From Abditibacteriota bacterium (GTDB lineage: Bacteria > Armatimonadota > UBA5829): DNA of 64,000 bases. The stretch lies in NCBI GenBank assembly GCA_017445025.1, contig JAFSVJ010000083.1:1-64000 (forward strand), written 5' to 3'. Positions 14,594 to 62,020 of the stretch are shown piece after piece. How positions within the stretch are numbered: the stretch's first letter is position 1; each line of letters opens with the position of its first letter. The notes beneath the pieces are model-generated. The model was not told the origin of the DNA. It was given only the letters and a program-made list of their open reading frames with translations, and did no database searches. The position numbers and the translations under genes are program-made.

Positions 14594-14647
14594 ATGGAAG
14601 AAAAAAACATACCTAAGCATATTGCCATAATCATGGATGAAAAATAA
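14594..14647 (+). pseudogene. Stranded second copy of the uppS 5' end
   Basis: A 17-codon frame that begins with the same 15 residues as uppS (MEEKNIPKHIAIIMD) and then reads into a repeat element, ending EK-stop. Over 46 bases it differs from the working uppS start (14736-14781) at five positions, all silent third-codon changes. It lies directly downstream of the palindromic promoter, so it is probably transcribed ahead of uppS and might be translated as a short leader peptide. I interpret it as the displaced original start of the gene. Confidence 0.8.
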
Positions 14648-14699
14648 AATGACAAAGGATCGAAAATTAGAGCTTTTCGAGGGATTTGGGTTTTATTTT
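14640..14699. repeat. Short gene-end element, copy A1 (60 bp, inside the uppS start duplication)
   Basis: The shortest member of a family found five times in the window. It opens AAAATAAAATGACAAAGGATC and closes GAGGGATTTGGGTTTTATTTT, which are imperfect inverted repeats. The interior is almost absent. It sits exactly between the two copies of the uppS start. Confidence 0.75.
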
Positions 14700-14735
14700 C
14701 AACAATTAATATAATAGGAATAGAAGGATAATAAT

Positions 14736-15446
14736 ATGGAAGAAAAAAACATACCTAAACATATAGCTATTATTATGGATGGAAATGGTCGTTGGGCTAA
14801 AGAAAGAGGAAAAATGCGTATATTTGGGCATGTCAACGGCTACAAAAGAATTTATCCCATTGTCAAGCACTGTAAAGATATTGGGGTGAAATATGTTTCA
14901 CTTTATGCCTTTTCTTCAGAGAACTGGTCAAGACCGGGACTTGAAGTAAGAGGCATCATGCAAATTCTTAAAAATGCCATAAAACAACAAATAAAAAAAA
15001 TGGGGGAAGAAGATTTAAGATTTGTGGTTTCCGGAAGAGTTGATGAATTGGAATCTACATACAAAAACTTAATAGATTATGCCACAGAAACCACCAAAAA
15101 CAACAAAACAATTACATTAAACCTTTGTTTCAATTACGGAGGAAGAAATGAAATTATAGATGCCACTAAAAAAATCTGTGAAAAGGTTAAATGCGGAGAA
15201 ATTAATATAGAGGATATTGATTCTGCCCTGTTTTCTAAAAATCTATACCACCCGGATATTCCGGACCCTGAGCTTATGATAAGAACTGCGGGAGAAATGA
15301 GAATATCCAATTATCTGTTATGGGAGATAGCCTACAGCGAACTCTACGTGACAGACATCTATTGGCCGGACTTCACTCCGGAAGAATTGGACAAAGCCAT
15401 AGAAAGCTATTCAAAAAGAGAGCGTAGATTTGGAGGACTGAAATAA
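14736..15446 (+). CDS. uppS: Isoprenyl transferase (undecaprenyl diphosphate synthase)
   Basis: A cis-prenyltransferase (236 residues) that extends farnesyl diphosphate with IPP to the C55 lipid carrier for cell-wall synthesis, at the inner face of the membrane. Signatures: IAIIMDGNGRWAKERG (residues 11-26, catalytic Asp and diphosphate loop), the SENWSRP motif, FNYGGRNEI, and the C-terminal RTAGEMRISNYLLWEIAYSE with the IPP-binding Arg/Ser. Length is slightly short of the usual 240-253. The true start is the second of two near-identical start regions; the upstream copy is cut off by a 60-bp element. The substrate could come from the synthase at 720-1790. Confidence 0.96.
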   Translation: MEEKNIPKHIAIIMDGNGRWAKERGKMRIFGHVNGYKRIYPIVKHCKDIGVKYVSLYAFSSENWSRPGLEVRGIMQILKNAIKQQIKKMGEEDLRFVVSGRVDELESTYKNLIDYATETTKNNKTITLNLCFNYGGRNEIIDATKKICEKVKCGEINIEDIDSALFSKNLYHPDIPDPELMIRTAGEMRISNYLLWEIAYSELYVTDIYWPDFTPEELDKAIESYSKRERRFGGLK

Positions 15447-15604
15447 AAATCAAAAATAGAAAATCAAAAATCAAAATCGTGGTGCTACGGACCACTTAGG
15501 TTAGTGGACTCTTAAATTTACAGATGCTCTGTAAAGTTTAGACACCACTATCCCCCCTCTAAGGGGGTATATTATTCATTTTTCATTCAATTTTTCATTA
15601 TTCT
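15447..15604. repeat. Intergenic repeats between uppS and the thioesterase gene
   Basis: A run of AAAATCAAAA units, a GTGGTGCTACGGACCAC hairpin followed by the GGTT.GTGGACTCTTAAA module (family C), and a CCCCCC...GGGGG hairpin at 15551-15567. The two genes converge here, and the C/G hairpin could stop transcription from either side. No gene is present. Confidence 0.7.
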
Positions 15605-32644: not shown

Positions 32645-33805
32645 ATGTACAGAATCGGAAAAGAAGAAATAGACGCTGCCGCAAAGGTTATCTATTCAAA
32701 ACAACTTTTCAGAGTTGGCGGAGAGCTTCATGAATGTGACAACTTTGAAAAAGAATGGGCAGAAAAATTAGGTGTAAAGTATAGTTTATTGATAACCGGT
32801 GGAGGAACCGCAGCATTAACTTCCGCCATTGCCGCTTGTCAAATCGGACCCGGAGACGAAGTTTTAATCCCCGGTTACACTTGGATTGCAACCGCTTCAG
32901 CTGTTTTAACCTGTGGTGCCATTCCCGTTATATGTGAAATTGATGAAACACTTACCATTGACCCTGAAGACATCAAACGAAAAATAACTCCTCAAACAAA
33001 GGCCATTATCCCGGTTCACATGGCAGGTCACCCCTGCGAAATGGATACTATTTGCCAAATCGCCAAAGAACACGGTCTTTATGTAATTGAAGACTGTTGT
33101 CAAAACGACGGTGGAACCTACAAAGGCAAACGCGTAGGAACTTGGGGCGACATGGGCTGTTTTAGTTTTAACTATTTTAAAATAATTTCTTCCGGTGAAG
33201 GCGGATGTTTCATTACCAACAATGAAGAACTTTTCCAAAGAGCAGCTTGCTACTGCGACTGTGGTTCTTTCTTTTGGTCTGACATTGAATTCAAATTCCC
33301 TGTATTTGTGGCACAACAATTCAGAGCCAACGAAATTCAAGGTGCCATAATGAGAGAACAATTGAAAAAATTAGACTCTATTATTGCCGACCTTAAAAGA
33401 GTTAGAAAAACATTAATTGCAGAACTTTCCGACTGCTTAAAGTTTATCCCATCCAAATCTCCCGAAGAAGACACAGGTGTAAACGTAGTTATAGAATTCC
33501 CCGACGAAGCTGCAGGACGTGCTTTCTGTGAAAAGATAGGTGCCATTGCCATGATGGGAATTGATCATGGTAAACACATTTTCACAAACTGGACTCCTCT
33601 GCAAACAAAAACCGCATATCACGTTCCTGCCATGAACCCATTTAACTTCCCACAAAACAAGGGACTTCGTGCAAATTATGGTGCGGAAGTATGTCCTAAG
33701 ACTTTGGAATACCTTAAGAAATATGCTTTCGTTGCTATTGATCCGGATTGGACAGATGAAGAGCTTAAAGATATTATTGCCAAATTAAGAGCTGCAGCAA
33801 AGTAA
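32645..33805 (+). CDS. DegT/DnrJ/EryC1/StrS-family PLP-dependent aminotransferase
   Basis: A 386-residue sugar-type aminotransferase of the DegT family, which usually aminates keto-sugars on nucleotide carriers. Key segments: ITGGGTAALTSAI (PLP phosphate binding), GDEVLIPGYTWIATASAV, IEDCCQNDGGTYKGKRVG (Asp binding PLP nitrogen), and CFSFNYFKIISSGEGG with the PLP lysine in the usual place. The C-terminal third is typical. No nucleotide-sugar genes are adjacent; the nearest is the epimerase at 9134. GC is a little higher here than in neighbouring genes, hinting at strong expression or a different origin. Confidence 0.9.
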   Translation: MYRIGKEEIDAAAKVIYSKQLFRVGGELHECDNFEKEWAEKLGVKYSLLITGGGTAALTSAIAACQIGPGDEVLIPGYTWIATASAVLTCGAIPVICEIDETLTIDPEDIKRKITPQTKAIIPVHMAGHPCEMDTICQIAKEHGLYVIEDCCQNDGGTYKGKRVGTWGDMGCFSFNYFKIISSGEGGCFITNNEELFQRAACYCDCGSFFWSDIEFKFPVFVAQQFRANEIQGAIMREQLKKLDSIIADLKRVRKTLIAELSDCLKFIPSKSPEEDTGVNVVIEFPDEAAGRAFCEKIGAIAMMGIDHGKHIFTNWTPLQTKTAYHVPAMNPFNFPQNKGLRANYGAEVCPKTLEYLKKYAFVAIDPDWTDEELKDIIAKLRAAAK

Positions 33806-34064
33806 ATTATAATCAAAAATATAAAATCAATAATCAAAGTCGTGGTGCTACGCACCACTTAGGTGGGGGGGCGACTAAATTTTATAGGTGGCATATATAG
33901 GATTTAGAATTCCATCCCCCCGTCAGTTTCATTCCCAAAAAGTTTTCGCTTACGCTTCAACTTTTCGGGAGCCCTTGAAACAATTTCGGACTGCCACCCC
34001 CCAAGTTAACGCCTAGGGGGACAGATTTATAATTTGAAAACAATTTTTAATTTAAGGTAAAAAA
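33806..34064. repeat. Composite intergenic repeats between DegT and the first glycosidase gene
   Basis: AAATCAATAATCAA units, a GTGGTGCTACGCACCAC hairpin at 33841-33857 (family C), then a C/G-run repeat at 33908-34024 (family B) that is longer than the others because its central stem is expanded (AAAAAGTTTTCGC ... CTTTTCGGGAG). A short AT-rich leader with GGTAAAAAA precedes the next ATG. No gene is present. Confidence 0.8.
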
Positions 34065-36351: not shown

Positions 36352-37239
36352 ATGTTAGATTATCATATACATACTAATTTTTCAGACGGAAGAGATCATT
36401 TTAACGAAATGGTCCAAGGAGCTATAGACAAAGGGCTTTCAGAATTTGGAATAAGTGACCACTTTACCATTGTTCCGAGAGACCCCATAAAATACAATAT
36501 TGACCCGTTTTGGACACATAAGCATTCAGAATGTAACACCTTAACCATGGAATTTGTCCCCGGTGGTTTTTGTGAAGGCTACTCCATGAACAAAAGCCGA
36601 TTGGGGGACTATTTCTATACAATTAATCTAAAAAAGGAAGAAGTTAAGGATAAACTAAACTTAAAGGCAAGTTTAGAGTTGGAATATTTTCCGGAGAATT
36701 GGGATGAAATGATAAAACTTGTCAATGAATATCCTCTTGACTATATTATAGGTGCTGTTCATAAAAACCCTGAGGGAGATTGGTATAAACATATCTGTGA
36801 TCCGAATTGCTATAAAGACTTTACGGAAGAAGAATATATAGATTTTGCAAAGAAAAACATTGAAATCATAATCGATATGGTTAAGACCGGCAAAAGCCAT
36901 ATAGTGGCCCACCCGGAATGTGTTTGTATGTATAGAAAGATGAAAGATTGGTCTGCAATGTATGACCATTTTTCTGTTCTTGTAAAAGCTGTCAAAGATA
37001 ATAACATGTGTATAGAAATGAACTGTTGGGAACACCCGGAAAACCAAGACTCTAACCTTTTCTTATACAAAGAATGCGGAAGACTTGATATTCCTGTTAT
37101 TATAACCAGTGACGCTCACTGGGTAAAATATATTAACTGTGGATTTGAACTTGGTATGAAATGGCTTAAAGAAGCCGGTGTTAAACACACAGCCACCTAC
37201 CATAAATGTAAAAAAACTATAAAAGAAATAAAATATTAG
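36352..37239 (+). CDS. PHP-domain phosphoesterase (HisJ-like), copy 1
   Basis: A 295-residue PHP protein, related to histidinol-phosphatase-type enzymes (metal-dependent hydrolysis of phosphate esters). Metal ligands are visible: YHIHTNFSDG (His5, His7), GISDHF, GAVHKNPEGDWYKH, VAHPECV and TSDAHW. It starts four bases after the glycosidase-like gene and is followed 12 bases later by a close paralog. There are no his genes nearby, so a role on a sugar phosphate or related metabolite is more likely than histidine synthesis; this is inference from context. Confidence 0.85.
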   Translation: MLDYHIHTNFSDGRDHFNEMVQGAIDKGLSEFGISDHFTIVPRDPIKYNIDPFWTHKHSECNTLTMEFVPGGFCEGYSMNKSRLGDYFYTINLKKEEVKDKLNLKASLELEYFPENWDEMIKLVNEYPLDYIIGAVHKNPEGDWYKHICDPNCYKDFTEEEYIDFAKKNIEIIIDMVKTGKSHIVAHPECVCMYRKMKDWSAMYDHFSVLVKAVKDNNMCIEMNCWEHPENQDSNLFLYKECGRLDIPVIITSDAHWVKYINCGFELGMKWLKEAGVKHTATYHKCKKTIKEIKY

Positions 37240-37251
37240 TTATGGGGTAAA

Positions 37252-38139
37252 ATGTTAGATTATCACACACATACTACGTTCTCTGACGGAAAGGATACAT
37301 TAGATAGTTTTATTCAAAGTGCAATAGAGAATGGAATTACAGAATTAGGTATAAGCGACCATTATGCTTGCGTGCCAAAGGATATTATCAAACTTAAAGA
37401 AGATCAAAGTTTATCGGAAAAACTTAAAAAATACGATCCCACAAAATTAGAAATAACCAAAGAAGGCTTTTGCGACGGATACTCTATAAAAAAGAGTGTA
37501 TTGAAGGATTATTTTTCTGAAATAAATTCAAAAAAAGAAGAGGTCAAAGACAAACTCGTTTTAAAAATAGGAATAGAGCTGGATTATTTTCCGGAAAACT
37601 GGGAAAATGTAATTTCCTTAATTAATAAATATCCTATTGATTATATAATCGGTTCCGTTCATAATAACCCTGAGGGGGATTGGTATAAACATATTTGTTA
37701 TCCTGATACATATATAGGTATGACAGATAATGAATATGTGGAATTTGCTCAAAAAAATATAGAACTGATTATAGATATGATAAATACAGGTAAATCTCAC
37801 ATTGTGGCTCATCCCGAATGTGTATGCGGAACAAAAAAAATGAAAGACATTTCTAAAATGTATGATCATTTTTCTGCTCTTGCGAAAGCTGTCAGTGATA
37901 ATGATATGTGCATTGAAATGAACTGTTGGGGACCTGAAGAAAACTTGGATCCTAACTTATTTTTATATAAAGAATGCGGAAGGCTTAATATACCTGTTAT
38001 AATAACCAGCGATGCTCATTTTATCACAGAACTAAGACGGGGCTATATTAAAGGTATGAAATGGCTAAAAGAAGCCGGTGTAAAATACACTGCCACATAC
38101 GATAAATGTCAAAAGAGTGTAAAGGAGATCAAATACTGA
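37252..38139 (+). CDS. PHP-domain phosphoesterase (HisJ-like), copy 2
   Basis: Same length (295 residues) as the preceding gene and closely similar throughout: YHTHTTFSDGKD, GISDHYA, GSVHNNPEGDWYKH, VAHPECVCG, NIPVIITSDAH. All metal ligands are kept, so both copies should be active. Sequence divergence is concentrated in residues 45-95, which form the substrate-side insertion in this family, so the two may differ in substrate. It abuts the second glycosidase-like gene by one base. Confidence 0.85.
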   Translation: MLDYHTHTTFSDGKDTLDSFIQSAIENGITELGISDHYACVPKDIIKLKEDQSLSEKLKKYDPTKLEITKEGFCDGYSIKKSVLKDYFSEINSKKEEVKDKLVLKIGIELDYFPENWENVISLINKYPIDYIIGSVHNNPEGDWYKHICYPDTYIGMTDNEYVEFAQKNIELIIDMINTGKSHIVAHPECVCGTKKMKDISKMYDHFSALAKAVSDNDMCIEMNCWGPEENLDPNLFLYKECGRLNIPVIITSDAHFITELRRGYIKGMKWLKEAGVKYTATYDKCQKSVKEIKY

Positions 38140-41298: not shown

Positions 41299-42093
41299 AT
41301 GACTTTTAAAGAAAAAATGATTACATACGGAAAAGTTGAAGACTGTCCTATTATTGATATGCACGCCCACTGGTATAAATTTTACGGTGCAGCATTGCCT
41401 AAAACTTCTGTAGAAGATTCTCTTGTGCTTTTTGAAGATTCAAATGTTAAAAAATTTGTTTTTGCCGCTCACTCAGCTATGCACAGTCCTCATTTAGGCA
41501 ACCAAAGCTCCTTAGATATAGCAAAGCAAAGACCTGATATATTTAAAGTTCTTTATTCCATAAACCCAAACTATCCCGACGACATTGAAAAAGACTTAAA
41601 GGATTGGGACAAACACGGAGATATAGTGGTAGGTTTCAAAGCTCTTGCTGACTATCACAAAATAGCTCTTGACAGTGGTGCTTACGATGCAGCCTTTGAA
41701 TATGCCAATGAAAAAGGATGCTATTTCCTATTCCACACTTGGAAAAGCCCCTATGACGGATACAAAAACATTAAATATGTTTTGGACAAATATCCAAATA
41801 TCAAAGTTTCCACAGGTCATTCCCTCCACGGCAATTGGGATATCTCAAGACAATACTGTTTAGACTATGAAAACTATTATTTTGATGTGGTAGCTCTTCC
41901 TGACGAAAGAGAGGTTATAGAAAAATGGTTCTCCGAACCTAAAGTTGTAGATAAAATGTTCTTTGGAACAGACTATCCTTGGTTCTCATACCATTACTAT
42001 ATCGGTGCAATGCTTGACACAGGTCTTGACGAAGAAAGTTTGAGAAAAGTATTCTATGGCAATGCTCAAAGAGTATTTCCTTGGGCAAGATAA
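41299..42093 (+). CDS. Amidohydrolase-2-family metal-dependent hydrolase, copy 1
   Basis: A 264-residue TIM-barrel hydrolase of the amidohydrolase-2 family, whose members include sugar lactonases and decarboxylases. The metal ligands are intact: IIDMHAHWYKF (HxH at about residues 23-25), STGHSLHGNWD, and FFGTDYPWFSYHY with the catalytic Asp. No signal peptide. In a block with xylose isomerase and glycosidases, a sugar-lactonase role is a reasonable guess but is not proven by sequence. A nearly identical gene follows. Confidence 0.82.
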   Translation: MTFKEKMITYGKVEDCPIIDMHAHWYKFYGAALPKTSVEDSLVLFEDSNVKKFVFAAHSAMHSPHLGNQSSLDIAKQRPDIFKVLYSINPNYPDDIEKDLKDWDKHGDIVVGFKALADYHKIALDSGAYDAAFEYANEKGCYFLFHTWKSPYDGYKNIKYVLDKYPNIKVSTGHSLHGNWDISRQYCLDYENYYFDVVALPDEREVIEKWFSEPKVVDKMFFGTDYPWFSYHYYIGAMLDTGLDEESLRKVFYGNAQRVFPWAR

Positions 42094-42106
42094 TCAGAGG
42101 ACATTA

Positions 42107-42904
42107 ATGACTTTTAAAGAGAAAATGCTTAAATATGGCAAGATTAACGATTGCCCTATTATAGATATGCACGCTCATTGGTATAAATTCTATGGTGCAG
42201 CTTTACCTACAACTTCCCTTGAAGATTCCCTTAAACTTTTTGAAGATTCCAATGTTAAAAAAGTAATTATCTCTTCACATCTTGCCTGTGAAAGTCCTAT
42301 TTTTGGTAATCAAGCAAGTATAGATATTGCCAAACAAAAACCGGATATATTCAGAGTTATGTTTAATATAAACCCTAATCATCCTGATGTAATAGAAAAA
42401 GATATAGCAAATTGGGATAAGTATGGTGATATAGTTGTAGGATTTAAAGCTTTGGGAGATTATACTAAAATTCCTTTTGATTCCGGAGCCTTTGATACTG
42501 CCTTTGAATATGCAAATGAAAAAGGTTGTATGTTTTTATTACATACATGGGGGAAAAGTCCTTATAACGATTCCAAAAACGTTAAATATGTTTTAGACAA
42601 ATACCCCAATATTAAAGTTTCCGCAGGTCACTCTATTCACGGTGAATGGGAAACATCAATGCATTTTGCTCTTGATTATGAAAACTATTATTTTGATATA
42701 GTTGCTATCCCTGATGAAAGAGAAGTTATAGAAAAATGGTTCTCCGAACCTAAAGTTGTAGATAAAATGTTCTTCGGAACGGACTATCCTTGGTTCTCAT
42801 ATCACTACTATATAGGTGCAATGTTGGACACAGGTCTAAACGAAGAGAGTTTGAGAAAAGTATTCTACGGCAACGCTCAAAGAGTTTTTGAGTGGGCGAG
42901 ATAA
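42107..42904 (+). CDS. Amidohydrolase-2-family metal-dependent hydrolase, copy 2
   Basis: A 265-residue tandem paralog of the preceding protein with the same motifs (IIDMHAHWYKFYGAALP, SAGHSIHGEWE, FFGTDYPWFSYHY). The C-terminal 70 residues are almost identical to copy 1 even at DNA level (for example the stretch starting GAAAAATGGTTCTCCGAACC), while the middle has diverged, which suggests recent gene conversion at the 3' ends. I use the ATG at 42107, after AGAGG; a longer frame from 42056 lies inside copy 1. Confidence 0.82.
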   Translation: MTFKEKMLKYGKINDCPIIDMHAHWYKFYGAALPTTSLEDSLKLFEDSNVKKVIISSHLACESPIFGNQASIDIAKQKPDIFRVMFNINPNHPDVIEKDIANWDKYGDIVVGFKALGDYTKIPFDSGAFDTAFEYANEKGCMFLLHTWGKSPYNDSKNVKYVLDKYPNIKVSAGHSIHGEWETSMHFALDYENYYFDIVAIPDEREVIEKWFSEPKVVDKMFFGTDYPWFSYHYYIGAMLDTGLNEESLRKVFYGNAQRVFEWAR

Positions 42905-43987: not shown

Positions 43988-44022
43988 AAAAAAAATCCCC
44001 CCCAAACGGGGGGATTTTTATT
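43988..44022 (+). terminator. Rho-independent terminator after xylA
   Basis: AAAATCCCCCC and GGGGGGATTTT pair across a short loop, followed by a T-rich tail. It lies a few bases past the xylA stop and closes the plus-strand block; the A-run ahead of it may let it work in both directions. Confidence 0.9.
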
Positions 44023-44250
44023 GATTTGCATCGCAAATTTAAAATCAAAAATCAAAATCGTGGTAGTTCGCACCACAAAGGTTGGCGAGCTCTTGGGTTA
44101 TAGCGAGCTCTTATATATCGCCCTCCTTGATTTGTTCGCCTTCGCTCCAAATCAATGGATCTAGTCAAAATCTTTAGTGATAAAGATTTTTGCCATCGGT
44201 CACCGAAAAATCATAGATTTTCCGGCTCTTTGGGATTTTTATACTCAAGA
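44023..44250. repeat. Composite repeat between the convergent xylA and GH116 genes
   Basis: An ATTTGCATCGCAAAT palindrome, AAAATCAAAAATC units, a GTGGTAGTTCGCACCAC hairpin (family C, with imperfect pairing), two GCGAGCTCTT units, and at 44161-44240 a module starting CTAGTCAAAATCTTTAG and containing CACCGAAAAATCATAGATTT. The same module lies inside the larger gene-end element at 61648-61720. No gene is present. Confidence 0.75.
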
Positions 44251-47247: not shown

Positions 47248-47580
47248 ATTTCTCGGGTCAACTTTATATTTAGTTCCGTCAAATTTCATATCTTTAATAG
47301 GTCCTAAAAATAAAATTCCAAAGGACCAAAAATATCAATTTTTCACAAGAAATATGGAATGTAGTCGTCGACTGTAGCACCACAGAATAAGGTTATTTTT
47401 TAAAGGCATTAGCCATTTAAAAAATGTTCTTAGGCGAGGAGCGTCAAGAAGACACGAAATGACATATTTCGTTAAGTGAAAAATTAGAGATTTTTGAGGG
47501 ATTTGGGATTTTATTTTATATTTCTCGGGTCAACTTTATATTTAGTTCCGTCAAATTTCATATCTTTAATAGGTCCTAAA
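47248..47580. repeat. Gene-end element copy A2 with 61-bp direct repeats of the host gene's 3' end
   Basis: The element (about 47309-47519) is flanked by two identical 61-base copies of the last codons of the beta-helix gene (47248-47308 and 47520-47580). Its arms read AAAATAAAATTCCAAAGG and, inverted, AAAATAAAATCCCAAATCC. Inside it TTTTTCAC pairs with GTGAAAAA, and the core contains GTAGTCGTCGACTGTAG. The working gene takes its last two codons and its stop from the element (ending DPRNIK), while the stranded copy ends DPRN-stop. Confidence 0.85.
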
Positions 47581-49499
47581 GTTAACTCTCTTGTTGTTAG
47601 ATATCCTATAATGTCTTCAGAAAGGATCGGCTCTCTCTTTGAGAGTCTGCTATTACCTAAAAAGTCATTTTGGATAAACTCATAAGCAAAGACTTGATTA
47701 TTAACCAAACATCCGGAAAGTGGCATTACAAAACTGTTAAGATCTTTTGGACAAGTTAAAGCAATGGTTAGATTATCTTCATCAAAATCAACCTTTATAT
47801 CTTCAATTTTGGAGTTTTTATCAAAACCTTTCTCTTGCCATCCGATAAAATCATATCTTCCGTTATTCTCCGGAACAGAGGTGCTTTGCATAAGGAAAGG
47901 GGTTTTCTCTATCTCTCCTTCTTCATTTATATCCTTAGAGTCTCCTTCCCCCTTTTGAGGCATAGAGAGCAAAGGACCATATAAATTGTAATCTATTACA
48001 GAATACTTAGTTGCTGTAGTAGTGTATCGCACTCCTCCGGTTAAAATATTACCACAAATAAAATGTTCGTCTTCAAAAACCAAACCCGGAGGATTAAACC
48101 TTGCTTTATCTCCTTGGTATATATCTAACAATGTTCCGCTTTTGGCATTTGCAACTATATTTTGAACAATATATAATTTATCCGCATCGGTAGAATGAAT
48201 TCCGTTAATATCTGTATTTAAAATTATATTGTTATCAATAAGAACAGGTCCCGGGGATATTTCCATAAAGACTCCCCCAAAAGTTTTGTCAAGGCAATTA
48301 TATACAAGATTTTGAGTCACTCGTGAATTTGAAACCCAACCGTCAAACCATATACCGGGTCCATTATCTATATTTCTTATAATATTTCGTCGAACTATAG
48401 AACCCATAACTCTATGTAATTTAATTCCTGCAATTTCACAATGTTCAAAGAGGGGCAAATAACCAATATTTTCAATTAAATTATCCTCAATAAGAATGTT
48501 TTGATTACAACCTGCATGCCAACCGCAAATGCCTGTAATACCACAATCATATATGTGACAATTTCTCACAATATTATTGCCAAGGGGTTGTCCTTCAGCC
48601 ATCTCCCACCATTGACCGCCAATATCCATTCCTGTGGCGTTGCAGTGACCTATTTCACAATTTTCTATAATAAAGTGATTGCCTAAATAAGTGCTGACTG
48701 CCCCCTTTTGAGGAGTTGGGATAAAAGCACCGTTTGCACAGTGTAGAAAAGATATTCCGCTAACAATTATATATTGTGAAAACTTATTTTTGGGAGTAAA
48801 GAGTTGCTCTCTTGCTGATGCTTCAAAGGTTTGTCCTATGGGATTTATACCTTCTGAAGGAATATAAAAAACTTTTCCGGCCTCAATACAAAAAGTATTT
48901 TCCTTAAGCTCTTCTGTTTTTAAAACCTGAGGAATTCTCTTTCCCTTTAAAAACAATTGACCTCTCTTGAGATTATAACCATAATCACATTTTGGAGGAA
49001 ACCCAAAATTATATTTACCGGGATCTTGAACCATATTCACTTTATCAAACTGACTGTTTTTTAGAAAATCAGGAATAGGAGCAACAAAACAGCCTGTTTC
49101 CAAAGACCAATCCGGTTTCCACTCAAAAGACCCTTTTACTATAACCTTTTCACCCTCTGCTCCAAAAAAGCCAATCATTTTTATGGAACTTTCACCGGTA
49201 TTTATGGGATTAATGGTTTCTCTGTAAGTCCCCTTATGAATAATAACTCTTTCACCTGCTTTTAGAACCTGTGCAGCGTGATTTATGGTTTTCCAAGGTT
49301 TTTCTTTAGTGCCGGGATTTTTATCATTGGCATTTTTATTTTCACAAGCAACATGATAAGTCTTTGACCAAACAGGAGAAGATTCCCAACTGTAAAACAC
49401 ATCACCTACGGGAAGCCTATCATTTTCAGGGTGATTTGTTAAAGCAAAGCTACAAGTAGCTATAAAAGATATAAGTAATAGAAATACAATTTTTTTCAT
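47511..49499 (-). CDS. Secreted right-handed parallel beta-helix protein
   Basis: A 662-residue exported protein with a signal peptide (MKKIVFLLLISFIATCSFA). It begins with the pattern of DUF1565/pectate-lyase-like proteins (NPGTKEKPWKTINHAAQVLKAGE, VIIHKGTYRETI). Residues 240-480 consist of beta-helix coils with repeated N-x-I/V strands (NNIVRNCHIYDCG, NILIEDNLIENIG, GSIVRRNIIRNIDNG, SRVTQNLVYNC). A polysaccharide lyase or glycosidase role is likely but no active site can be assigned. The gene overlaps the first BirA-like gene by four bases (ATGA). Its stop codon lies inside element A2. Confidence 0.85.
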   Translation of the reverse strand: MKKIVFLLLISFIATCSFALTNHPENDRLPVGDVFYSWESSPVWSKTYHVACENKNANDKNPGTKEKPWKTINHAAQVLKAGERVIIHKGTYRETINPINTGESSIKMIGFFGAEGEKVIVKGSFEWKPDWSLETGCFVAPIPDFLKNSQFDKVNMVQDPGKYNFGFPPKCDYGYNLKRGQLFLKGKRIPQVLKTEELKENTFCIEAGKVFYIPSEGINPIGQTFEASAREQLFTPKNKFSQYIIVSGISFLHCANGAFIPTPQKGAVSTYLGNHFIIENCEIGHCNATGMDIGGQWWEMAEGQPLGNNIVRNCHIYDCGITGICGWHAGCNQNILIEDNLIENIGYLPLFEHCEIAGIKLHRVMGSIVRRNIIRNIDNGPGIWFDGWVSNSRVTQNLVYNCLDKTFGGVFMEISPGPVLIDNNIILNTDINGIHSTDADKLYIVQNIVANAKSGTLLDIYQGDKARFNPPGLVFEDEHFICGNILTGGVRYTTTATKYSVIDYNLYGPLLSMPQKGEGDSKDINEEGEIEKTPFLMQSTSVPENNGRYDFIGWQEKGFDKNSKIEDIKVDFDEDNLTIALTCPKDLNSFVMPLSGCLVNNQVFAYEFIQNDFLGNSRLSKREPILSEDIIGYLTTRELTLGPIKDMKFDGTKYKVDPRNIK

Positions 49500-55940: not shown

Positions 55941-56285
55941 AATTATCTCCAATTTTAAAAATCAAAAATAGAAAATCAAAAATCAAAATCGTGGAGCTAA
56001 GCTCCACTTTGGTTGGGGGCGTTAAATAATGAATAATGCTTAATGCACAATGCATAATTAATGCATAATGAATAATTATCACCCCCCTAAATCCCCCCTA
56101 ACACAGTAGGGGGGACTATAAGAAGATAGCCTACGGTTTAAGAGGACAGATTTTTCGGTGCCTACAAGGACCGAGAATTGAAATCATATATTTTAAATGT
56201 TCTGTTAAAAATCTTAATATCCTTGCCAATTAATAATCATAATAAACTCCAGGGACTATCGAAACAAAACTTTATTTAAAAATAA
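55941..56285. repeat. Composite intergenic repeats between PHP and esterase genes
   Basis: AAAATCAAAAATAGAAAATC units, a GTGGAGCTAAGCTCCAC hairpin at 55991-56007 (family C; compensated GGAGC/GCTCC stem against GGTGC/GCACC elsewhere), AATAATGCTTAATGCA repeats, and a C/G-run segment at 56083-56117 (CACCCCCCTAAATCC ... GTAGGGGGGAC). From about 56160 to 56285 the sequence is AT-rich with nothing recognisable. No gene is present. Confidence 0.75.
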
Positions 56286-57304: not shown

Positions 57305-57469
57305 TTATATTTCCAATATTCTTTTTCTTCCATCAAAAAATATAGGTTGAAACAGAGCACATTTACTTGCTCCGTTTATGGCTTTTACTCTTATATATTG
57401 TTCGTCGGGCGATCCTGTAAATTCATAAACAGCTTCGTCTCCGTCAACAATCTTTAAAGGCAAACCCAT
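57305..57469 (-). pseudogene. Stranded 3' end of a PHP gene (55-codon fragment)
   Basis: An open frame encoding 54 residues and a stop, matching the C-terminus of the PHP protein at 57688. It begins MGLPLKIVDGDEAVYEFTG and ends GRKRILEI, where the working gene ends GRNKLLINK. About 45 bases nearest the element are identical; beyond that the copies differ at many positions, of which about a dozen are silent and only a few change residues (Gly to Ser, Val to Ile, Asn to Phe before the divergent tail). It looks like the original 3' end, left behind when the element and another allele's 3' end arrived. Confidence 0.8.
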
Positions 57470-57470
57470 T

Positions 57471-57682
57471 TAGTAAAATCACAAAGGACCAAAAAGATCG
57501 ATTTTTCGCAAGAAATATCGTATTGAAGTCGTCGACTGTAATGAGTGAGTAGTGGGACAAAATAGCGAGTGCAAAGCACGAAGCTAGTTTGTTTCAATAC
57601 GAAAGAATGTCAAGGAGACACGGAAATAGATATTTCGTTAAGCGAAAAAGAAGAGATTTTTGAAGGATTTGTGATTTTACTA
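57471..57682. repeat. Gene-end element copy A3 (212 bp) with perfect 15-bp inverted ends
   Basis: The ends TAGTAAAATCACAAA and TTTGTGATTTTACTA are perfect inverted repeats. Inside, TTTTTCGC pairs with GCGAAAAA, AAATATC with GATATTT and GTATTGAA with TTCAATAC, giving one long branched hairpin; the core has GTCGTCGACTGTAATGAG and a GTGC...GCAC stem. It begins a few bases past the stop of the working PHP gene and separates it from the stranded 3' fragment. Confidence 0.85.
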
Positions 57683-57687
57683 AATTC

Positions 57688-58728
57688 TTACTTGTTAATC
57701 AATAATTTATTTCTTCCGTCATTAAATACAGGTTGGAACAGAGCACATTTTCCGGCACCGTTTATGGCTTTAACCCTTATATACTGTTCATCAGGTGAGC
57801 CGGTAAACTCATAAACAGCTTCGTCTCCGTCAACAATCTTTAAAGGCAAACCCATTCTACCTTTAAAAATAATACGATTATTCTCCCCATTCTGAGGCTT
57901 TACCTTAATCTTGATATATTTATCGCGGACTTCATAAAAGTCAGCATATAAGCCATTTGAGGCATAAAAATCACCGCATCTTAGAGATGAAAGAATATTA
58001 TCCTTAAGATTATTATCAGTATCAACCTTTACCATAACAAATCCGTTTCCCGGAGTATGCCCTTTTCTTAAAATCTCTCTTGCATCATTAGCCCATTGGT
58101 CTACTATATCAGAAAAAGAGTTTTCTATCCAAGGCTTTTTCCCAAAATAAATGTGAGTATCATCTGTCATAGTGCCGTAAACGGTTTTCCCGTTAGAGAG
58201 CAAAACATCCCATATATACTCTACACTTTCAAAAGCCTCGTTTCCTTCGTTATGTCCACCGTCACTGTAATTGACAATTTCCAAAAGATAGGGATAATTC
58301 ACATTCAAAAGTTCGGTATAATTAAAGGAATAACCTCGGCGAGATCCACCCCAATTGGGATGGTTTACCTGAGGAATGGCTCCAAGTCTGTAATACTCCC
58401 TGATTATTTGGGAAATAGTTTCATATGCAAAAGAACTTTCTCTTGGGGGTATATAATCACCAACATATCCTATACCGCATAAATGAACATCGGCATTATT
58501 ATTAAAATGATTTTTAAATCTAAAACCAAATTCCGCTCCGGAGATATATGTAAAGTCTTCCATAGGCTCTTTAATATATTCTTCCACAGGGAAATTTGTA
58601 TCATGATCCGTGTATATAATAAAATCATAACCTAAGGATTTATAGATTTTGGCTGCTTCCTCCGGTGATGCCTGCCCGTCAGAGCATGTTGTATGATTAT
58701 GCAAAGAACCTTTTAAATATTTAACCAT
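57688..58728 (-). CDS. PHP-domain protein (CehA/McbA-like), copy 2
   Basis: A 346-residue paralog of the protein at 56286: KGSLHNHTTCSDGQASP, YDFIIYTDHDTN, SGAEFGFRFKNH, IPQVNHPNWGG, GTMTDDTHIY and the shared C-terminal beta domain with FKGRMGLPLK. In the first motif the HxH is intact, and CSDG keeps the Asp. An extra segment near residue 225 (EILRKGHTPGNGFV) is not in the paralog. Its last 55 codons exist twice, with the second copy beyond element A3. Confidence 0.82.
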   Translation of the reverse strand: MVKYLKGSLHNHTTCSDGQASPEEAAKIYKSLGYDFIIYTDHDTNFPVEEYIKEPMEDFTYISGAEFGFRFKNHFNNNADVHLCGIGYVGDYIPPRESSFAYETISQIIREYYRLGAIPQVNHPNWGGSRRGYSFNYTELLNVNYPYLLEIVNYSDGGHNEGNEAFESVEYIWDVLLSNGKTVYGTMTDDTHIYFGKKPWIENSFSDIVDQWANDAREILRKGHTPGNGFVMVKVDTDNNLKDNILSSLRCGDFYASNGLYADFYEVRDKYIKIKVKPQNGENNRIIFKGRMGLPLKIVDGDEAVYEFTGSPDEQYIRVKAINGAGKCALFQPVFNDGRNKLLINK

Positions 58729-59073: not shown

Positions 59074-59359
59074 CATTTTAATAATTCCAAATCCCTCGAA
59101 AATCTCTAATTTTTTATTACGAAAATGCCTTCGCTCCTTAACTTAAGATTTTTTTTATAGACGCATAATTGCCTTAGCTCCCAATTTCTTCATAAATGAA
59201 ATTTTACTGTGTAAAATCCCATTTCTTTTGAAATTGGGGCTAATCCACCGTCTTCGCTATCGCTCGCCTATTATTTGCTTTATAAAATAATCTTGTTATA
59301 TTCCCTTGCCATTTTCTATAAAAAATTGATCTTTTCGGTCCTTTAGAATTATTAAAATG
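59074..59359. repeat. Gene-end element copy A4 with 14-bp inverted ends overlapping the isomerase stop codon
   Basis: CATTTTAATAATTC (59074-59087) and GAATTATTAAAATG (59346-59359) are perfect inverted repeats. Next to them are the family's CCAAATCCCTCGAAAATC and GATCTTTTCGGTCC end blocks. The interior (about 230 bases) differs from the other copies. The right arm contains the last codon and stop of the isomerase gene, so the arm sequence matches the host gene. No duplicated gene end is seen at this site. Confidence 0.75.
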
Positions 59360-60824
59360 GATTTTCACCCGGATATAGCATATTATTTGGTAATGGGGTA
59401 TATACATCCTCCACACCCAAAAGTTTCACAGCTTCAAATAATATCTTTCCTACTTTTTCAAAAGCGACAGATGTGTGATGTGGATATTGATGAGCAAGCA
59501 AAACATAACGATAAAATCTCATCATTCCCGGTATGGCAAATATACCCACTCCACCAAAGGTTTTGGGATCTTTGTCCAAAACTTCACCTTGAGCCATATA
59601 AGAAGAAAGTTTACAATCCGCAGAGCTGTGAAGTCTGAATATGGTTATGGGAGAAGCTTTAATCTGCCCTTCAAGAGTTCCTCTTGTAATATCAGGCTCA
59701 GTATTAGGTTCAAGGGAACGTTTCATAATAAGTTGATATTTTAAATCATAAACTTTAAGATTACAAATTGAAGTATTACCACAGTGGAATCCCATAAACA
59801 AATCCTTAGGAGAACAACCCTTCAAATCCCATATTTCATCTGACATATTATAAGGAACAGAGTTATTTATATCTAACAAAGTGGGAGTTTTTCCTGATGC
59901 CAACAAACAGATATATTCACTTAATGCACCATACATATCTACTTCACAAGAGACGGGGATTCCTTTAGCTGTAAGACGAGAATTTACATAACAAGGGACA
60001 AAACCAAATCCTGTTTCAAAAGCGGGCCAACACTTATTGGCAAAAACAGCATAATCCTTGGCACCCAGATTTTCTTTCCTAAATTTTAGCAAAGCATATT
60101 CGTATCGTGCTAATTTTGGTAATATACCTTTATAAGAACATGTGCCGACTTCCCCTTCCATTTCTTTTAAGATTTCCTTAACACCGGCTTCATCATCACT
60201 TGTTTTGTTATATATCTCAAGTAAGTCAAGCTCACTGTTTTCCATAACTTCACAACCAAGATCATATAAAGGCTTAATAGGAGCATTACAACATACAAAA
60301 TCATAAGGTCTCGGACCAAATCCTATAATCTTTAAACCTTTTACTCCTATATATACTTTAGCTATGGAAATAAACTCTTCTATCATATCAGCTATTTCTG
60401 AAGGAATACCAACAGGGAATTTAGGGATATATGCTCTTATTCCTCTTATACTTAAATTGTAAGAGCAGGGTAACATTCCGCAATAGGCATCTCCTCGACC
60501 GTCAAAGAGAGAATCCTTATCATCCTCTGCTGCGGCACAAAACATACAAGGACCGTCAAATTCTTTGGCAAAGTAGGTTTCCACAATTTCCGGACCATAG
60601 TTTCCAAGATATACACAAGCAGCATTACAACCCTTATCTTTAGCTTCTTTTAAAGCTTTAACACAATCTTTTTCGTTTTCAATAATCGTTTCGGATAAGA
60701 CAAAATCAACGCTCTTTGATTTTAAGCATTCCGCAACTTTCTTAATTCTTGTATCTGTAAGAGAGATAGGAAAACAATCTCTTGATACACCTACCAAAAA
60801 TAATTTAACAACAGGAATATTCAT
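59352..60824 (-). CDS. L-fucose/L-arabinose isomerase-family protein
   Basis: A 490-residue cytosolic protein of the FucI/AraA fold, interconverting aldoses and ketoses with Mn2+. The C-terminal domain is clearest: ANKCWPAFETGFGFVPCY, then SRLTAKGIPVSCEVDMYGALSEY with the metal Glu/Asp, GKTPTLLDINNS and FMGFHCGN with the metal His. Substrate cannot be fixed; L-fucose would fit with the GH29 enzyme at 29382. It is shorter than canonical FucI (about 590). I use the ATG at 60824, eight bases after GAGG; a GTG three codons earlier is possible. The stop lies in the arm of element A4. Confidence 0.83.
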   Translation of the reverse strand: MNIPVVKLFLVGVSRDCFPISLTDTRIKKVAECLKSKSVDFVLSETIIENEKDCVKALKEAKDKGCNAACVYLGNYGPEIVETYFAKEFDGPCMFCAAAEDDKDSLFDGRGDAYCGMLPCSYNLSIRGIRAYIPKFPVGIPSEIADMIEEFISIAKVYIGVKGLKIIGFGPRPYDFVCCNAPIKPLYDLGCEVMENSELDLLEIYNKTSDDEAGVKEILKEMEGEVGTCSYKGILPKLARYEYALLKFRKENLGAKDYAVFANKCWPAFETGFGFVPCYVNSRLTAKGIPVSCEVDMYGALSEYICLLASGKTPTLLDINNSVPYNMSDEIWDLKGCSPKDLFMGFHCGNTSICNLKVYDLKYQLIMKRSLEPNTEPDITRGTLEGQIKASPITIFRLHSSADCKLSSYMAQGEVLDKDPKTFGGVGIFAIPGMMRFYRYVLLAHQYPHHTSVAFEKVGKILFEAVKLLGVEDVYTPLPNNMLYPGENPF

Positions 60825-60854
60825 TATTAACACCTCTACAATTAAGTTAAAATA

Positions 60855-61133: not shown

Positions 61134-61580
61134 TTATTTACTGCATTCTTTAGCATCACAAGCACAGGTTTTGGCTTCTTTCTTAGGTAAATCCAAGCCT
61201 TTACCTGTAGTTTTGATTAAATAATCGTCAATGGCACTCTGTATAGCTTCTTCAGCCAAAACAGAGCAATGCATTTTTACCTTAGGAAGCCCACCTAAAG
61301 CTTCAGCCACAGCCTTGTTTGTCACAGCCAAAGCTTCTTCTATTGTCTTTCCTTTAATCAATTCGGTAGCCATGGAACTTGTTGCAATAGCCGCTCCGCA
61401 ACCGAAAGTTTTGAATTTAACGTCTGTGATTACATTATCCTTTACCTTAATATACATATTCATAATATCGCCACAGACAGGATTTCCAACTTTTCCTATA
61501 CCGTCAGCATCTTCAATTTCCCCCACATTTCGTGGATTTGAAAAATGCTCCATAACTTTTAATGAATATGGTTCTGCCAT
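61134..61580 (-). CDS. iscU: IscU/NifU N-terminal-type Fe-S cluster scaffold
   Basis: A 148-residue scaffold on which [2Fe-2S]/[4Fe-4S] clusters are built. The three conserved cysteines are in GNPVCGDIMN, FKTFGCGAAIATSS and MHCSVLAEEAI, with the active Asp after the first (CGD). A C-terminal extension CACDAKECSK adds three cysteines not found in classical IscU. The ATG is preceded by AGGAGG. A second, partial copy of the start lies at 61975-62005 beyond element A5. It forms an operon with nfu. Confidence 0.93.
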   Translation of the reverse strand: MAEPYSLKVMEHFSNPRNVGEIEDADGIGKVGNPVCGDIMNMYIKVKDNVITDVKFKTFGCGAAIATSSMATELIKGKTIEEALAVTNKAVAEALGGLPKVKMHCSVLAEEAIQSAIDDYLIKTTGKGLDLPKKEAKTCACDAKECSK

Positions 61581-61627
61581 AAAATATATATATAAACCTC
61601 CTGTTGAATTTCTTGACTTAACAGATT

Positions 61628-61975
61628 AAAATAAAATCTCAAATGTCTAGTCAAAAATCTTTAATGGTAAAGATTTTTGCCGTCGGTCACCGAAAAATCG
61701 TAGATTTTCCGGCTCTTGCTAAAAACGACAAGTTGTTGTCGTTTTTACAAAAAAACGATGCTTTTTTGCCGCAATTCAACTCAAAAATCCTTGATTTTTT
61801 GCTTAACGAAATATCTAATTTCGTGTCTCATTGACATTCCTTCGTATTGAAACAAAATCTATAATGGCTAACGCCTTATATCTTTTGTCCCACTACTCAC
61901 TCATTACAATCGACGACTACATTACGATATTTCTTGCTAAAAATCAGCCTTTTTGGGCCTTTGACATTTTATTTT
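61628..61975. repeat. Gene-end element copy A5 (about 348 bp), largest member, upstream of iscU
   Basis: Ends AAAATAAAATCTCAAA and, inverted, AAAATAAAATGTCAAAGG. Read on the minus strand it contains the same core as A3 (GTAGTCGTCGATTG, GAGTGAGTAGTGGGAC, TTTCAATACGAAGG, GATATTTCGTTAAGC) and an extra module with CACCGAAAAATCG that is also found alone at 44161-44240. The interior has several AAAAACGAC...GTCGTTTTT hairpins. It separates the iscU promoter region from the mdh gene. Confidence 0.82.
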
Positions 61976-62020
61976 CCATAACTTTTAATGAATATGGTTC
62001 TGCCACAATATCAATAAAAC
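61975..62020 (-). pseudogene. Stranded second copy of the iscU start and ribosome site
   Basis: The 31 bases 61975-62005 are identical to the iscU start (61549-61579), encoding AEPYSLKVM. The start codon is GTG instead of ATG, and an upstream GAGG ribosome-site region is also preserved (CGAGGTTTTATT against the working gene's AGGAGGTTTATA). After about 11 codons the frame enters element A5. It would be expressed ahead of the element as a very short leader frame. Confidence 0.75.

Follow-up and report, generated by a model that had tools for sequence, protein, structure and literature searches.

Among insertion sequences, members of the IS1634 family (IS1549 of Mycobacterium smegmatis and IS1634 of Mycoplasma mycoides) are flanked by direct repeats of variable length (8–514 bp), for which no mechanism had been proposed as of a 2008 review (PMC2266710). 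The hairpin elements described here resemble this family in their long and variable direct repeats and in their AT-rich targets. However, IS1634 family elements are about 1.5–2 kb long with a DDE transposase, whereas the present elements are non-coding and measure about 59–290 nt, and they differ further in their copy-specific covarying ends and in a flank divergence that simple decay of a duplication would not give. REPINs, which are doublets of REP sequences, likewise form hairpins in intergenic DNA, are non-autonomous and show compensatory changes (PMC3116915). In REPINs the REP ends are conserved and there is a RAYT gene, whereas here the ends are copy-specific and Y1_Tnp is absent; the present elements are also larger and carry long flanking duplications. 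Bacterial MITEs are similarly short, non-coding and present in many copies with terminal inverted repeats, but they share their outermost repeats, which here are not common to copies (although the terminal helix is), and their target duplications span a few bp as opposed to a variable 70–250 nt. The strand-specific inner structure is a further difference from MITEs. SINE-type retroposons have in common with these elements a structured, RNA-like body, a variable target duplication and an asymmetric right junction, but they end in a poly-A tail where we find a terminal hairpin, and no reverse transcriptase was found here. The element family fits neither IS1549/IS1634 nor REPINs fully.

Results

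The window (the whole stretch of 64,000 nucleotides that was analysed) contains the elements A1–A5. The original prediction dealt with their paired ends and missed the duplicated gene fragments on either side, which are the main feature of the family and more surprising than the covariation. Element A3 and its surroundings are as follows.

57471..57682, + strand: element A3, a rod-like hairpin of 212 nt, identified by its fold and by 187 bits with model R1
57471..57485, + strand: left outer arm of A3, TAGTAAAATCACAAA, copy-specific
57668..57682, + strand: right outer arm of A3, the exact reverse complement of the left arm
57314..57470, − strand: D', the left flanking copy, a 3'-end fragment of a PHP-domain gene adjoining A3
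57683..57699, unstranded: S, a segment of the right copy beside the A3 arm, no longer alignable to the left copy
57700..57856, − strand: D, the right flanking copy, the 3' end of the intact PHP-domain gene (57688–58728)

The two flanks (57314–57470 and 57700–57856) align over 157 nt with 87% identity. Fifteen of the 21 differences fall at third codon positions, and their distribution is uneven, with none in the 48 nt nearest the element and all 21 in the following 109 nt. Direct repeats of at least 40 nt that lie less than 600 nt apart form four pairs in the window, flanking A1, A2, A3 and A5.

47307..47517, + strand: element A2, with a variant core
47248..47309, unstranded: left flanking copy of A2 (66-nt repeat, about 97–98% identity)
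47520..47581, unstranded: right flanking copy of A2, the end of the gene at 47511–49499
14641..14699, + strand: element A1, a minimal 59-nt hairpin consisting solely of the terminal helix
14548..14640, + strand: left flanking copy of A1, a fragment of the start of uppS
14700..14785, + strand: right flanking copy of A1, the start of the intact uppS gene (14736–15446)
59074..59359, − strand: element A4, with the shared terminal helix and a longer, different inner domain (subfamily III)
61628..61975, − strand: element A5, interrupted at about 61644–61785 by a nested second hairpin element
61549..61590, − strand: D, the right flanking copy of A5, the start of the intact downstream gene
61975..62016, − strand: D', the left flanking copy of A5 (42 nt, 90% identity)

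In the left flank of A1, five codons are altered before the junction and all five changes are synonymous. The arms of A5 (16 nt, 94% complementary) have 316 nt between them, the true right arm at 61628–61643 being split from the remainder by the second, unrelated hairpin element. A flanking duplication was looked for around A4 and none was found. The A4 arm holds the stop codon of the gene at 59352–60833 (L-fucose isomerase C-terminal domain), such that the element supplies the end of this gene.

Across the genome, direct homology between the two flanks is significant in 62 of 72 testable copies. The left flank is a gene fragment that ends at the left arm, while the right flank carries the intact gene, which lies on this side in nearly all listed cases; the duplicated span is mostly 70–250 nt, and both gene starts and gene ends occur. 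Between the end of the left copy and the modelled core there is a median of 13 nt, which places that end at the outer arm. How far from the element the right copy begins varies; the stretch from the core end to the end of this copy is mostly 80–220 nt, and the right junction lies in AT-rich DNA. The flanks of copy C43:23874 are 100% identical; in this copy and in C46:63524, both of which look young, 8–14 nt between the right arm and the repeat match neither copy. At L012 (1203–1710) two successive elements are associated with a single tRNA gene, which is present there once intact and twice in part, and L030/L029 is apparently a second tRNA locus with an element. A tandem pair of elements at L027 (1161–1707) has a single flank copy between its members (131 nt, 99% identical), which is what recombination between flanking repeats would give.

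The genome of this bacterium (2.85 Mb in 122 contigs, 91.6% complete) holds 41 copies of the element by BLASTN and at least 81 by covariance model, the latter being the genome-wide collection that the original prediction had proposed. The copies sit at unrelated genes and two tRNA loci, in both gene orientations and with precise left junctions, and there is no replication-strand bias (34 of 67 copies). In 14 other genomes of the family, two congeners among them, the covariance model gave no matches, and BLASTN against relatives returned no element match beyond the genome itself. The terminal motif is found in relatives merely as single gene-internal matches in two genomes, and the core pattern has no match in GTDB contigs or IMG/VR. 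Rfam gave no match for the window or for the element, either at gathering thresholds or at relaxed ones (E up to 5), in keeping with the earlier statement that the core did not resemble a familiar RNA family. The element family is so far known from one species alone.

The ends of the elements are as originally described: A3 begins with TAGTAAAATCACAAA at 57471–57485 and closes with its exact reverse complement at 57668–57682, A4 ends in CATTTTAATAATTC, and A2 and A5 end in AAAATAAAAT. The reported swap of inner pairs is also correct, with TTTTTCGC/GCGAAAAA in A3 and TTTTTCAC/GTGAAAAA in A2. The core GTCGTCGACTGTAATGAG, which had been called conserved, is so only in part; it is present in A3 and, with one change, in A5, but A2 has an altered form and A1 and A4 lack it.

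A3 folds as one long rod (−71.4 kcal/mol, z −8.75). Covariation statistics were obtained from an alignment of 39 copies, for which the RNAalifold consensus has 58 pairs, 37 of them with double changes. Cells are paired in 95.8% of cases, as compared with 82.2 ± 0.5% after shuffling and 40–55% when the partners are slid, and it is the slid controls, not the shuffles, that control for the relatedness of the copies. Both sides have changed in 290 cells (88 ± 7.5 shuffled, 51–85 slid), and the covariation score is 0.411 against 0.168 for the control. The arm covariation claimed in the original prediction is therefore well above shuffled and slid controls, and stronger than had been stated. Left and right arms also match better when both come from one copy (median score 23) than when they are taken from different copies (15).

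G-U/U-G cells outnumber A-C/C-A cells by 202 to 17 over the whole structure and by 167 to 6 in the inner helices. Because a G-U pair becomes A-C in the complementary strand, the inner helices are constrained as the strand shown, and the conclusion that the inner hairpin is selected as a folded single strand, either RNA or possibly single-stranded DNA, is well supported. In the outer 13 pairs the counts are 10 and 9; there, A-U to U-A flips dominate with few intermediates, and the pairs are Watson-Crick without strand bias. Selection on a folded RNA or single-stranded DNA, which had been proposed to underlie the paired changes, thus holds for the inner hairpin, whereas the outer arms are better read in another way.

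A conserved terminal helix (~CAAAGGACCNAAAA ... TTTTYGAGGGATTTG) encloses varied inner domains or none. It is common to A3-type, A2-type and A4-type (about 250–290 nt) elements and to the 59-nt A1, and it lies farther in than the outermost 10–15 nt, which are not common to copies. Since A1 is flanked by a duplication of its own even though it lacks an inner domain, the mobile unit is probably the terminal helix, with the inner hairpin as a passenger or accessory part. Copies with 93–95% identical cores carry different outer, and often different middle, arms. Mantel r between both strands of a module is 0.64 for the outer, 0.80 for the middle and 0.87 for the core; between modules it is about 0 for mid-core and outer-core and 0.11–0.27 for outer-mid. 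Gene conversion of cores between dispersed copies, with the arms untouched, explains this unlinking economically, and templated re-creation of the arms would also account for it. Linear recombination among copies was rejected, as it misfits arms that are linked to their distant partner and not to their neighbour.

In several copies (C43:4543, C121:32664, C110 and C63:10351) the outermost portion of the right arm is itself duplicated target sequence. It recurs in these where the left copy ends away from the element, and the left arm itself is not target there, which suggests that the left arm may have been copied from the target or that microhomology may have been used at insertion. The outer arms look templated because their G-U and A-C counts are equal, flip intermediates are few, like cores carry unlike arms and arm sequence is found in the target; they were probably made by copying each other or the target. 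Template switching during replication can create and maintain hairpins and gives multi-base compensatory changes (PMC8794818). That the left arm arose in its entirety by simple fold-back copying is made less likely by the conserved asymmetric internal loops of the terminal helix.

Comparison of left with right flanking copies over 40 loci (1148 codons) gave a dS of 0.34 and a dN of 0.049, and hence a dN/dS of 0.143 (95% CI 0.10–0.19). A near-identical tract of ~15–100 nt lies beside the element and is followed by divergence mostly at third positions, beyond which the upstream sequence is unalignable; a few loci (C110, C30:127) show the reverse mosaic. The low dN/dS together with the mosaic argues that two diverged alleles often meet at or near the element, and recombination with other strains would be the simplest cause of the allele switch. 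The genome contains a ComEC-like gene which scores above the cut-off for the ComEC N-terminal domain and below that of the NCBIfam ComEC/Rec2 equivalog. Simple decay of a target duplication was rejected as the whole story, since neutral decay predicts a dN/dS near 0.5 where 0.14 is observed. Campbell-type integration of a small circle was also set aside, as it predicts divergence along the entire repeat and the element-proximal tract is near-identical.

The original prediction had pointed to a possible full-length partner encoding a recombinase or reverse transcriptase. None was found: the reverse transcriptase domain RVT_1 (PF00078) is absent from the 92% complete genome, in which positive controls respond, as is Y1_Tnp (PF01797), and ~0.79 Mb of sequence held no convincing case of such ends enclosing more than 350 nt, the one exception being a pair of motifs 2.9 kb apart in the window. 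IS-like multicopy coding repeats were likewise not found in ~0.79 Mb from the same genome. There are five tyrosine recombinases (two of XerC/D type and three weakly Xer-like), none of which reaches the curated cut-off for an integron integrase, the enzyme expected if the elements were integron attC sites. Contigs L146, L164, L165, L177, L183, L196 and L200 (1.7–2.6 kb) consist entirely of N and could hide a mobilising element.

Several other repeats occur in the same genome. A second hairpin-rich family of about 135 nt (TCTAGTCAAAAATC to GCCGCAATTCAA) is found at 44167–44230 and 61654–61717 of the window and at L125; no long duplication was seen around the copy nested in A5. A hairpin of ~54 nt (ATTCCAAGGGTTCCC...GGGATTTGGAAT), the right end of which is similar to the terminal helix of the main family, is nested in two elements, at L007 (about 499–765) and L020 (about 1670–1725). 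A dispersed repeat unrelated to the main family (AAAATCAAAAATC... CGTGGTGCTACGCACCACTT) occupies 15441–15519, 33804–33882, 44022–44100 and 55953–56031 of the window, and L126 past position 483 holds a short tandem array, GGGATTTGGGATTTTTATACTCAAGAAAAAAATAAATCCCGAA, from the right end of an element. The window also contains tandem paralogous gene pairs with 71–84% DNA identity (41299–42904 and 36352–38139).

Discussion

The explanation that we favour, with roughly even confidence, is an orphan non-autonomous mobile hairpin that makes long, variable target duplications and later recombines with the alleles of other strains. A putative enzyme would recognise the terminal helix, insert the element and duplicate 70–250 bp of target, as for IS1549/IS1634. 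The right end would enter AT-rich intergenic DNA and the left end would usually fall inside the adjacent gene, such that the insertions to survive would be those leaving one intact gene copy. Fold-back synthesis would complete the outer left arm, with the right arm and sometimes adjoining target as template, so that arms would pair perfectly yet vary between copies, and gene conversion would swap cores between copies with the arms undisturbed. A crossover near the left end of the element with alleles of other strains would then replace the outer left flank and so produce the mosaic of near-identical and diverged sequence. This recombination step was added because the left fragment shows purifying selection, which target duplication alone leaves unaccounted for. 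Other points against the account are that the searches yielded no mobilising gene, that even the young-looking C43:23874 and C46:63524 have the 8–14 nt that match neither flank, and that the terminal helix has its asymmetric internal loops.

Several of the same observations could be read as the trace of a SINE-like RNA retroposon, in which target-primed reverse transcription at a nick in an AT-rich target would copy a transcript of the strand shown; the long duplications would come from staggered nicks and the left arm from snap-back of the cDNA. The strand-specific G-U pairing, the one-sided AT-rich right junction with its variable duplications, and the outer arms that run on into target would all follow, but the lack of an RVT_1 domain in a 92% complete genome where positive controls respond makes this unlikely, and we know of no such system in bacteria. 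The allele mosaic could instead arise together with the duplication in a single event, if an imported element with donor DNA on its right side paired with the orthologue in a new strain and was joined on its left to the host strand. This would fit the near-identical tract at the left end, the mostly synonymous divergence after it, the unalignable upstream sequence and the ComEC-like gene. It leaves arrival at new loci unaccounted for, however, and sits poorly with flanks that are near-identical throughout (100% in C43:23874, about 97–98% in A2) and with the reverse mosaic in C110 and C30:127; we consider it a little less probable than the retroposon.

It is more doubtful still that the element is real and the diverged double flanks are metagenome-assembly chimeras of strains with and without the insertion. 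The assembly is fragmented (122 contigs) and a near-identical tract followed by a switch looks like bubble merging, but local divergence of 10–24% is large for such merging, there is no sharp minimum tract length, and the near-identical long repeats at several loci need no strain mixing. A REPIN-like mode of movement, in which a Y1 (RAYT/IS200-type) transposase mobilises the element as single-stranded DNA, would account for hairpin-forming, intergenic, non-autonomous copies with compensatory changes, as reported for REPINs (PMC3116915). We regard it as very improbable given a genome with no Y1_Tnp domain; moreover, REPIN ends are conserved and target site duplications are not mentioned in PMC3116915. 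Least probable of all is that the copies are a regulatory RNA or 3'-end element that does not move and has multiplied through ordinary duplication. This would agree with the conserved single-strand structure but is contradicted by copies at unrelated genes and two tRNA loci, in both gene orientations and with precise left junctions. A bolder proposal, which we hold to be as unlikely as the retroposon, is a new type of mobile hairpin that would form its ends by fold-back copying of target and spread between strains with flanking donor DNA, each insertion joining a shortened resident allele to a complete foreign allele of the same gene.

Covariation in this family has two sources, namely structural constraint inside the element and probably templated copying outside it, and the family is thus a warning that covariation by itself does not prove an RNA to be functional. 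Judging from the allele mosaic, the elements appear to mark recombination between strains. A single genome here provides about 80 natural insertions, several of which have near-identical flanks, and so offers data for working out the mechanism of long duplications.
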